Assembly (NCBI GenBank): GCA_024278835.1
Contig: JAJRSK010000074.1
Location: 1-33,715, forward strand
DNA from: Campylobacterales bacterium
GTDB lineage: Bacteria; Campylobacterota; Campylobacteria; Campylobacterales; QNZT01
Length of the DNA: 33,715 bases
Direction of reading: 5' to 3'
Of the stretch, positions 5,262-33,412 are shown one piece after another (the stretch's first letter is position 1; the number at the start of each line of letters is the position of its first letter). Made by a program: the position numbers and the translations under genes. The notes beneath the pieces were generated by a model. It did no database searches. It saw only the letters and a list, made by a program, of their open reading frames with translations, and had not been told where the DNA came from.

Positions 5262-6224
5262 TTATTCTTCATCTGCCAATGAGATTTCATCATAGGCTTT
5301 CATCATGTGTCTGCCCAAAGCATACTCAAAACCGTCCCAGTGCTCAAAAGCTGTCAATTCTTTGATGGCTTGTGGCTTGACTTCATAAGCTTCCAGGTCA
5401 TCATCATAGGCTTTTTGTGCCCATTTTGCAACAGTTTTTAGGTAGGTAAGATAAGGGGTGATGGTCTCAACTTGTTTCCCTGATATGCCATGTCCTGGTA
5501 TATAAAAGTCCAGATTTTTGTTTTTGAGTAGTTCTTCCAAGAGTGTGATATTTCCAAAAACACTAGAAGAAGCATCAAATGCACCAAGTCTACCTTTCAT
5601 GACATTGTCACCTAAAAAGAGTGTTTTTAAATTGACATGGGTGATGAGAAGGTCAGTATCAGTATGTGCAATCTTAGGGTGATGTGCGATAAATTTTTCA
5701 CCATCTATGACTATGTTCTCTCCCTCTTTAAGTGCGTGATTTGGATAGGCAAATGCATTGTTTGTCCCTTTGAGGTTTTTGGTCAGTCTATCTAAGATGT
5801 CGTACCACTTGTCAGCTTCACCACCTTTGACTTCTTTTATCATCTGAGGGTGGGCGTAGATTTTGAGTTTTGGATACTTTTCTAGTAGTGCTTTGTTGGC
5901 AAACCAGTGATCACCATGTTTGTGCGTGTTGATAGTGGCAAGAATCGGTTTTTTAGAGATTTTTTCTATTTCTACGAGGACTTTTTTACCTATATTGTAG
6001 CTTCCACCTGGATCGATGATGATAAGACCTGTTTTCCCTTCGATGATGGCAGGATTGTTCATAAATCCTTCGTTTTCCATGTCAGGTGAGACGATAGGCC
6101 CATGCATAACATAGATATTTTCATGCACCTTTTCAAAGTGAAATTCGCCATACTTTTTTAGGGTAAATGCTGATAATGAAGTGGTTAATACTATCATGAT
6201 AAGAAAGATATATGTTTTTTTCAT
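5262..6224 (-). CDS. Secreted MBL-fold metallohydrolase (SoxH-like)
   Basis: A 320-residue metallo-beta-lactamase-fold protein with an N-terminal signal peptide (MKKTYIFLIMIVLTTSLSAF), so it acts in the periplasm. The zinc motif is NTHKHGDHW, with H101, H103, D105 and H106. Further ligands are likely in HTDTDLLI, FLGDNVM and YIPGHG. The pattern resembles the SoxH / quinoprotein-relay zinc-hydrolase group, whose substrate is poorly known; a thiol-ester or glutathione adduct is possible but not shown here. An upstream in-frame ATG at 6314 would add 30 residues, but AAAGG at 6231-6235 and the signal peptide support 6224. It precedes malic enzyme by 17 bp. Confidence 0.85.
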   Translation of the reverse strand: MKKTYIFLIMIVLTTSLSAFTLKKYGEFHFEKVHENIYVMHGPIVSPDMENEGFMNNPAIIEGKTGLIIIDPGGSYNIGKKVLVEIEKISKKPILATINTHKHGDHWFANKALLEKYPKLKIYAHPQMIKEVKGGEADKWYDILDRLTKNLKGTNNAFAYPNHALKEGENIVIDGEKFIAHHPKIAHTDTDLLITHVNLKTLFLGDNVMKGRLGAFDASSSVFGNITLLEELLKNKNLDFYIPGHGISGKQVETITPYLTYLKTVAKWAQKAYDDDLEAYEVKPQAIKELTAFEHWDGFEYALGRHMMKAYDEISLADEE

Positions 6225-6356
6225 TGGAATCCTTTTGTAGAAGAATTTTAGCATATCCTTTGTAAATATCAGGTATGCATAAAAAATAATTATTGCGACA
6301 TATATCGTCGTCATAATGGTCTATACTGATGCAAAGATTTGAGGAGGAAGTATCAA

Positions 6357-6403
6357 GTACTATTTTAACATCCAGTCTTTAAAATAGTATCTTAAAATAG
6401 TAC
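6357..6403. promoter_or_regulatory. Repeat operator and promoter of the toxin-antitoxin operon
   Basis: Two direct copies of TTAAAATAGTA start at 6379 and 6392 (13 bp apart), and an inverted copy TACTATTTTAA lies at 6358-6368. TACAAT at 6401-6406 could be the -10 element. Closely spaced inverted and direct repeats before an antitoxin gene are typical of autoregulatory operators. Confidence 0.55.
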
Positions 6404-6425
6404 AATCTAAAAAACAGGAGTATTC

Positions 6426-6605
6426 ATGATAACCATATCTTCAAGTGATGTCATCAAAAAACCATCATACATAACAAACCCAAAAGAGGTAACCATAGTT
6501 GAAGATGCTAAAAAACATATCATTAAGCGTGTTGTAATACCTTATGATTTATACGAAAAACTAAGAGAAAAGATAGAAGATGAACTCTATTTTAATGGAA
6601 AATAA
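6426..6605 (+). CDS. Antitoxin of a PemK/MazF-type system, C-terminus frameshifted
   Basis: A 59-residue reading frame starting MITISSSDVIKKPSYITNP, with AGGAG at 6416-6420 five bases before the ATG. It lies directly upstream of a PemK/MazF toxin, the standard antitoxin position. The frame stops at 6603-6605, 39 bp before the toxin. In the +1 frame the following DNA continues as LMENKDALDESVCEDLSR and ends in TGA overlapping the toxin ATG as ATGA, which is the usual coupling. Removing one T from the TTTT run near 6591 would join the two into a ~73-residue antitoxin. It is therefore probably a recent frameshift, a sequencing error, or less likely a slippery site. Antitoxin C-termini usually bind the toxin, so neutralisation may be weakened. 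Confidence 0.7.
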   Translation: MITISSSDVIKKPSYITNPKEVTIVEDAKKHIIKRVVIPYDLYEKLREKIEDELYFNGK

Positions 6606-6648
6606 AGATGCTTTAGATGAAAGTGTTTGTGAAGATTTATCACGATGA
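6595..6648 (+). pseudogene. Out-of-frame C-terminal tail of the antitoxin
   Basis: Seventeen codons reading MENKDALDESVCEDLSR and then TGA, in the +1 frame relative to the annotated antitoxin. The acidic composition fits the toxin-binding tail of such antitoxins, and the stop overlaps the toxin start (ATGA at 6645-6648). Confidence 0.55.
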
Positions 6649-31824: not shown

Positions 31825-31848
31825 TATAATGCAACATCATTTTTAGGA
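31825..31848 (+). promoter_or_regulatory. Promoter and RBS of the PII-Amt operon
   Basis: TATAAT at 31825-31830 preceded by TG, then TAGGAGA before the ATG at 31858. An ATG at 31822 in the same frame overlaps the promoter and is not a sensible start. No clear sigma-54 (GG-N10-GC) site is seen, although one would be plausible for nitrogen genes. Confidence 0.5.
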
Positions 31849-31857
31849 GAATTCCCC

Positions 31858-32196
31858 ATGAAAAAAATCGAAGCTGTTATCAAGCCCTTTAAGTTAGAAG
31901 ATGTCAAAGACGCGCTAGTGGATATAGATATCTCAGGTATGACTATCACAGAAGTGAGGGGTTATGGACGGCAACAAGGGCATACAGAGCTTTATCGTGG
32001 GGCTGAGTATGTGGTAGATTTTTTACCAAAAGTCAAGATAGAGTTGGTGGTTAAAGAAGAAGATCTTGATAGTGCGATATCTGCTATTGTAGGTGCAGCT
32101 AAGACTGGTAAGATAGGGGATGGTAAGATTTTTGTCTCTTCTATAGAGAAGACGATTCGTATCCGTACGGGTGAAGAAGACGAAGAGGCAATTTAG
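31858..32196 (+). CDS. glnK: Nitrogen regulatory protein PII
   Basis: A 112-residue trimeric signal protein that reads 2-oxoglutarate and ATP/ADP and controls the ammonium transporter encoded next. The start [20 protein letters not shown] is canonical. The T-loop contains [10 protein letters not shown] with the Tyr that is uridylylated in many bacteria. The B-loop ([14 protein letters not shown]) and the C-loop (IRTGE) for nucleotide binding are intact. It stops at 32196 and amt begins at 32197 without a gap. The glnK-amt pairing is near universal, which is why I prefer glnK to glnB. Confidence 0.95.
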
Positions 32197-33372
32197 ATGG
32201 AAGATTTTGCCTATATTATAGACACCTTTTTCACACTCTTTGCCATGGTGCTTATCATCTTGATGGTGCCAGGATTTGCGATGCTAGAAGCAGGTTTGGT
32301 GCGAACTAAAAATGTCTCTACTGTGCTTACTGTCAATATCATGATATATGTCGTGGCATCTATGGCATTTTTGCTTTTGGGATACGATATCGCTTTTGGT
32401 TCATGGGAAAATGACTCCATGAGTAAATGGGCAGCGTTTCTCTTTCAGATGGCATTTGTCGGAAAAGCTATCAATATCATGAGTGGTGGCGTGAGTGAGC
32501 GTGTAAAAGTTATCCCTCTCTCTATCTTTACTGTTCTCATGGGTGCGTTTATCTATCCGCTCATCGTCAATATCACTTGGGGAGCAAATCTGCTCAAAGA
32601 TACTTTTTTAGAGCTTAGTATGTATGACCTTGCGGGTTCGACTGTTATACACTCTACGGGTGGTTGGGCGCTTTTGGCAGCTATCATGATAATGGGTCCT
32701 CGTTATAAAAGATATGTCAAAGGTAAAATCCGTGTTATCCCTGCTTCAAATATCCCCCTTGTGGTTTTGGGTGCGATGCTCCTTTGGATAGGGTGGTTTG
32801 GGTTTAATGGTGGTTCAGTTGGTTCAATCAGCACAAAAGAGAACGCTGACTTAGTGGCTAAAACAATCATGAATACCAATACAGCAGGACTTGCAGGTGC
32901 TATCATCGCCTCGTTGATGATGCTTTGGAAGTATAAAAAACTAGATATCACGATGATACTCAATGGCGCACTTGGTGGTTTGGTGGCTATTACTGCGGGA
33001 CCAGATTTGTATGATATGTATACACCAATTTTGATTGGTGCAATCGGTGGGGCATTGGTGGTGTTTGCGGTACCATTTTTCGATAAGCTTCGTTTGGATG
33101 ACCCTGTGGGTGCACTCTCTGTGCATTTAGTCAATGGGATATGGGGAACATTAGCCGTAGGAATCTTCGCTTCCAATGGTGATGATATCACATTTTGGGG
33201 ACAATTAAAAGGGGTATTGGTTGTGGGTGTGATAGCCTTTGTACTCTCTTATATCGCTATCTATGCTATCAATAAAGTAGTCGCTTTTAGAGCCACAGAT
33301 GATGATCAGCAACAAGGGTTGGATTTTGAAGAGTGTGGATTAGAGAGTTATCCTGAGTTTGTGAGAAACTAA
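32197..33372 (+). CDS. amt: Ammonium transporter (Amt family)
   Basis: Inner-membrane channel-like transporter for ammonium, regulated by PII. The 391-residue protein has about eleven membrane helices. It shows GFAMLEAGLVRTKN in the first helices, the twin pore histidines in HSTGGWALLA and SVHLVNGIWG, and WFGFNGGS. The N-terminus MEDFAYIIDTFF lacks the cleaved signal of E. coli AmtB. TATCATGATA copies at 32337 and 32682 both encode IMI in membrane segments. The gene ends shortly before a perfect palindrome that probably terminates the transcript. Confidence 0.95.
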   Translation: MEDFAYIIDTFFTLFAMVLIILMVPGFAMLEAGLVRTKNVSTVLTVNIMIYVVASMAFLLLGYDIAFGSWENDSMSKWAAFLFQMAFVGKAINIMSGGVSERVKVIPLSIFTVLMGAFIYPLIVNITWGANLLKDTFLELSMYDLAGSTVIHSTGGWALLAAIMIMGPRYKRYVKGKIRVIPASNIPLVVLGAMLLWIGWFGFNGGSVGSISTKENADLVAKTIMNTNTAGLAGAIIASLMMLWKYKKLDITMILNGALGGLVAITAGPDLYDMYTPILIGAIGGALVVFAVPFFDKLRLDDPVGALSVHLVNGIWGTLAVGIFASNGDDITFWGQLKGVLVVGVIAFVLSYIAIYAINKVVAFRATDDDQQQGLDFEECGLESYPEFVRN

Positions 33373-33386
33373 AGAAGACCTCTAAA

Positions 33387-33412
33387 CTAGTAGCTATCAT
33401 GATAGCTACTAG
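33387..33412. terminator. Perfect 26-bp palindrome with the TATCATGATA word at its centre
   Basis: CTAGTAGCTATCA at 33387-33399 is followed directly by its exact reverse complement to 33412. It lies 15 bp after amt and four bases before the stop codon of the convergent small gene, so it probably acts as a bidirectional terminator. On the minus strand it is followed by TTT; there is no T-run on the plus strand. The centre is an exact TATCATGATA copy (33395-33404). Confidence 0.7.

Follow-up and report, generated by a model that had tools for sequence, protein, structure and literature searches.

A stretch of 33,715 nucleotides from a Campylobacterales bacterium (assembly GCA_024278835.1, contig JAJRSK010000074.1; hereafter the window) has 24 exact copies of the 10-bp palindrome TATCATGATA, between positions 6192 and 33404. 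Our preferred reading, to which we give a probability of about 45%, is that TATCATGATA, with YTATCATGATAR as its full consensus, is a word specific to its genus and under active drive, methylated to label the cell's own DNA for uptake, and that related genera have their own dialects.

The copies are far too many for chance: 100 dinucleotide shuffles of the window gave a mean of 0.08 and a maximum of 1. The mean density is one copy per 1.40 kb (33,715/24), eight of the 24 copies extend to the 12-bp CTATCATGATAG, and no other palindromic 10-mer of the window comes near TATCATGATA (the runner-up has 2 copies). Nineteen copies lie wholly within called open reading frames (ORFs), where they are read as YHD (8) or IMI (11), two lie across ORF starts and three are intergenic. 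The original prediction, made from the sequence of the window, had named 24 copies where about 0.1 are expected, eight extensions to 12 bp, a spacing of about 1.4 kb and readings as IMI or YHD, and all of these values were reproduced; its gene names gltX, cdsA, dxr and kinase are supported too.

Abundance across the genome and the order

The genome under study (G000; 2,507,854 bp in 77 contigs) has 1,549 copies of TATCATGATA in 2.51 Mb and 7 of the reversed word, which served as control. A genome-wide count was the test that the original prediction had set itself, and the result is far above chance; the density also falls within the one copy per 1-2 kb that characterises DNA uptake sequences (DUS). 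The sister species of the same genus (G001) has 1,009 copies (control: 1). TATCATGATA was counted in 398 genomes of Campylobacterales and the 396 others have between 0 and 166 copies, most of them 0-20, with the highest numbers in G056 (166), G006 (88) and G021 (66); therefore, TATCATGATA is a genus-level trait. In G056, which belongs to the Sulfurospirillaceae, TCATGA contexts are also in diffuse excess, and the word there is perhaps decaying or young. The nearest named matches to the dxr protein of the window are a metagenome 'Sulfurospirillum' (84%) and other Campylobacterales (53-75%); four of the 22 loci with dxr matches are weaker (39-44%) and come from groups outside Campylobacterales.

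Further counts were made in samples of G000 (the window, L006-L025, L157-L160 and L198-L217). In 335 kb there are 226 copies where the trinucleotide composition predicts 2.0, an excess over the Markov expectation that bears out the suggested likeness to the highly iterated palindromes (HIPs) of cyanobacteria. In 731 kb, 399 of 515 copies are coding, 62 are intergenic and 54 lie across gene edges; gene calls simply took the longest ORF, a crude rule that makes coding and intergenic counts approximate. The intergenic density (1.13/kb) is higher than the coding density (0.59/kb), and they are 98-fold and about 270-fold over the Markov expectation of each compartment. The original prediction had held the word to be too abundant, and too often inside genes, to mark transcription-factor sites, and its copy number and mainly coding location indeed rule out a transcription-factor operator with few, mostly upstream sites.

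The word reshapes the proteome

In the same 731 kb, YHD and IMI rank first and second in over-representation among 7,805 tripeptides: YHD occurs 175 times (10.6 expected) and IMI 248 times (36.1 expected; with start codons removed, expectations are 11.0 and 33.9). Almost all are spelled as the 9-mer of the word (170/175 YHD and 244/248 IMI), where codon usage predicts 42% and 14%. Only four IMI are spelled otherwise versus about 29 expected (33.9 x 0.86), indicating that ancestral IMI sites have probably been converted to the word spelling too. Both tripeptides are ordinary elsewhere in the order, in 18 stretches from other families (YHD 6 versus 3.4 expected, IMI 9 versus 14.3) and near expectation in seven other genomes that include the weak-word genomes G056 and G006 (YHD 11 versus 5.2, IMI 20 versus 18.1, with 12 of the 20 IMI spelled ATCATGATA). 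In the Sulfurospirillum genomes G040 and G070, it is LHV that is inflated (62 versus 10.9), and 59 of the 62 are spelled TTACATGTA. DNA-level pressure on TATCATGATA overrides protein sequence and changes amino acids.

The reverse explanation, that the word merely reflects protein constraint, codon bias or a compositional quirk, retains next to no probability. The readings YHD and IMI of the genic copies in the window seem tolerable in many proteins, but intergenic density exceeds coding density, and a strong excess of YHD and IMI accompanies the word and is not seen without it. Compartment densities and tripeptide counts together refute protein or codon constraint: with intergenic copies denser and tripeptides inflated, the copies are not confined to codons fixed by the protein, the other outcome that the original prediction had reckoned with.

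Anatomy, spacing and conservation of the copies

The base next to either end of TATCATGATA is mostly a purine (G 59%, A 26%; 335 kb sample), which gives the full consensus YTATCATGATAR. Among one-mismatch forms, transitions are enriched 3.5- to 12-fold depending on the position, with the strongest enrichment at the two outermost bases, and transversions at most 2.3-fold (C4>G, A5>T); 72 of 117 near-misses are transitions, and two-mismatch forms are at 1.1-fold. The pattern resembles what point mutation would leave of once exact words, and the innermost bases are held most strictly. Near-misses adjoining perfect words showed no relaxation (148 transition near-misses, p 0.51). Over 724 kb the spacing is close to random, with a coefficient of variation of 1.05 (random: 0.99) and 27 spacings of 50 bp or less (random: 18.1): there is slight clustering and no repulsion.

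When 76 kb of G000 were aligned to G001 (74% DNA identity), 19 of 33 gap-free copies were perfect in G001 and nine more were at gaps; in the reverse comparison, 19 of 27 gap-free G001 copies were perfect in G000. Of random 10-mers, 7.8% are perfect between the two genomes. Together with the densities and tripeptide counts above, this shows copies to be kept as well as gained beyond protein constraint, the question for which the original prediction had proposed an alignment of orthologues. In the few alignments between G000 and other genomes, nine of ten gap-free copies differ by at least three bases, one is perfect in G003 and three more are at gaps; about half to two thirds of random 10-mers differ by as much. 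These numbers are small, and suggest that the lineage itself acquired most of its copies.

Related words on a CATG core

Stretches of other genomes were searched for iterated words with no word preset. The mostly-N stretches L023, L024, L027, L038, L054 and L200 yielded nothing, L066 and L067 are parts of G001 and G002 (identical coordinates and scores) and not independent genomes, and word absence is uninformative in those genomes of the family whose first contig is 2-10 kb. The order has several iterated words on a CATG core: TATCATGATA, the Sulfurospirillum word TACATGTA, TTCATGAA and the non-palindromic TATCATGTAR. These four words were counted across 79 genomes, any of which may hold another word if it lacks these, and a word was called strong with at least 300 copies and more than 10 times the control. 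YTACATGTAR has 1308 copies in G040 (control 12) and 1432 in G070 (control 10); the next highest genome has 11. YTTCATGAAR has 416 copies in G008, 567 in G011 and 480 in G016 (controls 14, 27 and 22), 36-85 in five other genomes of the same genus and, as the highest number outside that genus, 111 in G039 (control 5). TATCATGTAR has 629 copies in G002 (control 15) and 74 in G013 (control 10). G006 has weak excesses of two words (TATCATGATA 88 versus 6, YTTCATGAAR 75 versus 28).

Of the four strong words, only TATCATGTAR of G002 is not a palindrome; it consists of the left half of the word of the TATCATGATA genus and the right half of the Sulfurospirillum word. Since CATG is constant and the flanks vary, a methyltransferase alone would not be sufficient, and something must read the flanks. 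A bolder version of our reading, possible but doubtful in this complete form, is a modular methyl-marked code in which a constant methylated CATG is combined with interchangeable half-sites (CATGATAR, CATGTAR and CATGAAR, here A, B and C) in equal or unequal pairs: A/A in the TATCATGATA genus, B/B in Sulfurospirillum, A/B in G002 and C/C in part of genus g4. Such a code would be a lineage-specific DNA 'password'; its origin would lie in genomes whose CATG methyltransferase lacked a partner endonuclease, and its drive would have been hard enough to rewrite proteomes.

The same halves would also suit a dimeric nucleoid, segregation or replication protein that binds half-sites and has nothing to do with methylation, the shared CATG then reflecting the protein family. 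Two-fold symmetry, half-sites that recombine between genera (CATGATA, CATGTAR, CATGAAR) and outer bases that are more degenerate than the inner ones are all in line with such a binding site. We consider it improbable: more than 1,000 near-perfect sites forced into proteins are far more, and stricter, than the sites of such proteins known to us, and the HpyI-type methyltransferase without adjoining IceA that accompanies the words in all eight strong-word genomes (see below) would be a coincidence.

The Sulfurospirillum word is also present on a plasmid. pSDCE1 of Sulfurospirillum diekertiae (L220, 39.9 kb) carries 14 TACATGTA at 1918-39644, where chromosome density predicts about 20; eight of the 14 are in the form YTACATGTAR (about 19 at chromosome density). 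G040 is probably S. diekertiae, because the methyltransferase on its second contig shares coordinates with pSDCE1. A count below chromosome density fits either an uptake function or an intracellular function of the words. pSDCE1 is typed as non-mobilizable and its own methyltransferase copy, at 1692-2732, adjoins an IS21 element.

A methyltransferase without adjoining IceA

A search of G000 with two Pfam families identified one good methyltransferase, a D12 protein of 336 amino acids; PF01555 had only two sub-threshold, stop-ridden matches. The protein has no match in the PDB and only below-cut-off matches in NCBIfam. Among 12 phage records with a similar gene, five name it 'ulcer associated adenine specific' methyltransferase or similar, which we take to be the name of Helicobacter pylori hpyIM. 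H. pylori hpyIM recognises CATG and has the endonuclease iceA1 as partner. The G000 methyltransferase resembles the hpyIM-iceA1 and NlaIII systems in that it groups with proteins whose genes, in relatives, adjoin ICEA-family endonucleases, and from these relatives it is predicted to be specific for CATG.

In both G000 and G001 the methyltransferase gene adjoins selO, and no restriction enzyme was recognised adjoining it in either genome. The other neighbour in G000 is an exonuclease III-like ORF of the endonuclease/exonuclease/phosphatase family, and a DNA-alkylation-repair ORF lies 2.3 kb from the methyltransferase (exonuclease III-like and DNA-alkylation-repair ORFs at 11993-12766 and 16202-16645 of L157, G000:C77). 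Neither of these two ORFs was seen in the short G001 contig, where the other neighbour is an ORF without family, followed by a transposase piece.

Methyltransferase matches were found in 39 of the 79 genomes, 30 of which were checked for an IceA neighbour (the other nine are weaker matches). The check covered the best methyltransferase copy per genome (both copies in G040) with flanks of about 1.5 kb, some of them ended by a contig edge; 30 loci were compared, of which 29 were long enough for a tree. An IceA-like sequence adjoins the methyltransferase in 12 of the 30 genomes: Pfam assigns the neighbour in G006 and G075 to the ICEA family, while five of the 12 resemblances are remote (G041, G054 and G068, about 30% like IceA) or cover little sequence (G050 and G048, matches of 81 and 36 amino acids). 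No IceA was found in G000 or G001, either adjoining the gene or in the stretches searched (about 0.72 Mb of G000 and 0.19 Mb of G001). All eight strong-word genomes among the 79 surveyed have a methyltransferase match (in G011 the gene is present as two fragments at contig ends), versus 31 of the 71 other genomes (Fisher p 0.002, uncorrected for kinship), and in none of the eight was an adjoining IceA found. A strong word, any of the four, is found in 8 of 18 genomes without adjoining IceA and in none of the 12 with IceA. The presence of a CATG-type methyltransferase without IceA partner lends indirect support to the original idea that the word may be associated with methylation.

Observed-to-expected ratios of CATG are 0.89 in G000, 0.76 in G006, 0.39 in G041, 0.87 in G058 and 0.07 in G025 (20 kb); the depletion in G025, beside an IceA-like neighbour, is as a CATG restriction system predicts. 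Unlike hpyIM-iceA1 and NlaIII, the word genomes were found without adjoining IceA and CATG is not strongly avoided there: with no adjoining endonuclease found and CATG near expectation, G000 does not present an NlaIII/IceA-type restriction-modification system, and restriction avoidance is ruled out as the origin of an over-represented word. A different site, GATC, is strongly avoided in the G000 samples (0.17 of expectation) and likewise in stretches of G006, G025 (L048: 0.04 in 20 kb) and G041, which suggests past or present GATC restriction activity.

Possible functions: uptake label or intracellular process

Two known systems serve as the closest precedents. Campylobacter jejuni, a member of the same order, accepts for uptake only DNA that CtsM has methylated, so that a methyltransferase marks the own DNA (PMC8468864). 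The motif of CtsM is RAATTY, printed as RATTY in that paper. The mark in C. jejuni is a short methylated motif, different from the words described here. We know of no over-represented long word in C. jejuni. The second precedent are the DUS of Neisseriaceae, whose dialects have a shared invariant CTG core and variable flanks (PMC3630211). Like the words of Campylobacterales, DUS are 10-mers repeated thousands of times, with one dialect per lineage and an invariant core within variable flanks; unlike them, DUS are non-palindromic with a CTG core, whereas the strong words of Campylobacterales have a CATG core and, TATCATGTAR apart, are palindromes.

The CtsM precedent and the dialect pattern of DUS together lead us to favour a methylated self-label for uptake. 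An HpyI-type adenine methyltransferase without restriction partner would mark CATG in the own DNA, and a reader protein of the natural-transformation machinery would recognise the marked CATG together with genus-specific flanks. DNA bearing the word would then be taken up and recombined more often, a molecular drive that could push the word into every tolerant position, even at the cost of changed amino acids. CATG methylation in these species, a reader of the flanks and uptake as the step served are inferred; the uptake signal considered in the original prediction gains indirect support from C. jejuni.

A number of observations weigh against this interpretation. Possession of the methyltransferase does not guarantee a word: none of the four is strong in 10 of the 18 genomes that have the gene but no adjoining IceA, among them G009 and G014. 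The gene may not be strictly necessary either: the metagenome-derived genome of L074, which may be incomplete, has 9 TACATGTA in 21 kb and no methyltransferase match, and G039, with its middling excess of YTTCATGAAR, has none as well. G006 has IceA and still shows its weak word excesses. The methyltransferases of the word genomes form no single clade in the tree of 29 loci, the starred branches of which permit one, and the eight strong-word genomes represent only about four lineages. The known uptake words are non-palindromes, and the palindromic form of three of the four strong words departs from the asymmetry of DUS and uptake signal sequences. Were a single word per fragment enough for uptake, copies should repel each other, and slight clustering was observed instead. 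The competence channel ComEC is present in G000 (G000:C48), in keeping with uptake, but is weak evidence, as it does not discriminate between word and word-less genomes: it was found in 14 of 16 genomes searched, word-less ones included, and not in the word genome G008 nor in G014.

A serious rival, although we consider it unlikely, is that the methylated words serve, or are a by-product of, an intracellular process such as repair, recombination, replication or segregation, in the manner of HIPs. HIP1 (GCGATCGC) and the alternate HIPs (GGCGCC and others) are palindromic, occur in hundreds of copies per Mb, have lineage-specific alternates and are accompanied by methyltransferases that match the core (PMC4390886). 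The words described here are likewise palindromic, genome-wide, coding and intergenic, and accompanied by a methyltransferase predicted to be of a type that matches the core, without IceA. The exonuclease III-like and DNA-alkylation-repair ORFs close to the G000 methyltransferase could be a setting for repair. Synonymous opportunities are used almost completely and neighbouring copies do not repel each other, as fits a site-by-site process, and the words are also carried by the S. diekertiae plasmid. However, the published mechanism for HIPs needs MutS/MutL repair (PMC4390886), and MutL was over the cut-off in none of 14 genomes searched: nine, including G000, had no match and five had weak partial matches, while all 14 control searches gave matches, 11 of them over the cut-off (MutS was not searched for). 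Because of this absence, the published mismatch-repair model, and with it that form of the repair-associated role considered in the original prediction, is disfavoured. Both the non-palindromic TATCATGTAR and the changes of flanks around a constant CATG are unexpected if the methylation site alone drives accumulation, and the insufficiency of the methyltransferase counts against an intracellular process too. Further differences to HIPs are the AT-rich composition of the words, their length of 10-12 bp, the CATG core, the D12-type (adenine) methyltransferase and the non-palindromic sister dialect; the reshaping of the proteome may be another.

Iterated words with methyltransferases (HIPs) and uptake dialects are both known kinds. 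No description of a CATG-based word set in Campylobacterales was among the literature matches listed for the literal words and themes, and the available text of PMC4390886, PMC3630211, PMC8468864, PMC4450513, PMC1939737, PMC7755780 and PMC8865925 does not describe the CATG words.

Copies in the window and other iterated words

The 24 copies of the window are listed in Table 1. Two stretches of more than 5 kb are word-free (1-6191 and 24448-29775); in the second, GC content falls to its lowest in the window, and the ORFs there are Big_2, unknown and RepL-like response-regulator ones. A PemK/MazF-like toxin ORF is at 6645-6992.

Table 1. Positions and contexts of the word copies in the window
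Form	Positions	Context
TATCATGATA	6192-6201	IMI frame, metallo-hydrolase ORF (5262-6314, minus strand)
CTATCATGATAG	7300-7309	YHD frame, gltX
TATCATGATA	8550-8559	overlaps start codon (8554), SurA-N ORF
TATCATGATA	12191-12200	YHD frame, ORF 11741-12880
CTATCATGATAG	12211-12220	IMI frame, ORF 11741-12880; 20 bp downstream of copy at 12191
TATCATGATA	14776-14785	IMI frame, patatin-like ORF
TATCATGATA	15100-15109	YHD frame, ORF 14968-15522
CTATCATGATAG	15390-15399	IMI frame, ORF 14968-15522
TATCATGATA	17564-17573	intergenic (17560/17603)
CTATCATGATAG	18256-18265	YHD frame, response regulator-GGDEF ORF
TATCATGATA	18604-18613	YHD frame, response regulator-GGDEF ORF
CTATCATGATAG	19955-19964	IMI frame, NFACT ORF
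GTATCATGATAC	20231-20240	IMI frame, NFACT ORF
TATCATGATA	21381-21390	IMI frame, cdsA
TATCATGATA	22592-22601	overlaps start codon (22596), dxr
CTATCATGATAG	22776-22785	YHD frame, dxr
TATCATGATA	24438-24447	IMI frame, histidine kinase ORF
TATCATGATA	29776-29785	intergenic
TATCATGATA	29952-29961	YHD frame, sulfatase ORF
CTATCATGATAG	31287-31296	YHD frame, sulfatase ORF
TATCATGATA	31711-31720	IMI frame, sulfatase ORF
TATCATGATA	32337-32346	IMI frame, ORF 32197-33372
TATCATGATA	32682-32691	IMI frame, ORF 32197-33372
CTATCATGATAG	33395-33404	intergenic, directly past ORF 32197-33372

Other iterated words were noticed in the order as well. G058, a genome of another family with an IceA-like neighbour, has an asymmetric word without CATG: the non-palindromic ACCTCATC occurs 14 times at 1496-19563 of L064 (0.24 expected in 20 kb), dispersed and on both strands. 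L078 (Helicobacteraceae bacterium GLR69; 31% GC) has 17 CGATCG in 21 kb, at 3477-19508, four of them as the HIP1 word GCGATCGC. CATCGATG is also over-represented in G000 (32 versus 5.2 in 335 kb), far below the main word. L040 (G019) has TCACGTGAAAC repeats that resemble parS sites.

Implications

Highly iterated words are known from cyanobacteria, Neisseriaceae and Pasteurellaceae, and the words described here extend their range to Campylobacterales. They connect palindromes of the HIP kind, which come with a methyltransferase, to dialects of the uptake kind, which share a core, and they demonstrate that pressure at the DNA level is able to raise YHD and IMI above all other tripeptides of a proteome in over-representation. 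The function of HIPs is an old question, and the close lineages described here, together with the cultivable Sulfurospirillum, allow methylation, uptake and word to be separated experimentally. If the words are indeed labels for uptake, gene exchange in these bacteria would be gated by a readable code, and possible trading partners would be revealed by the genome sequence.

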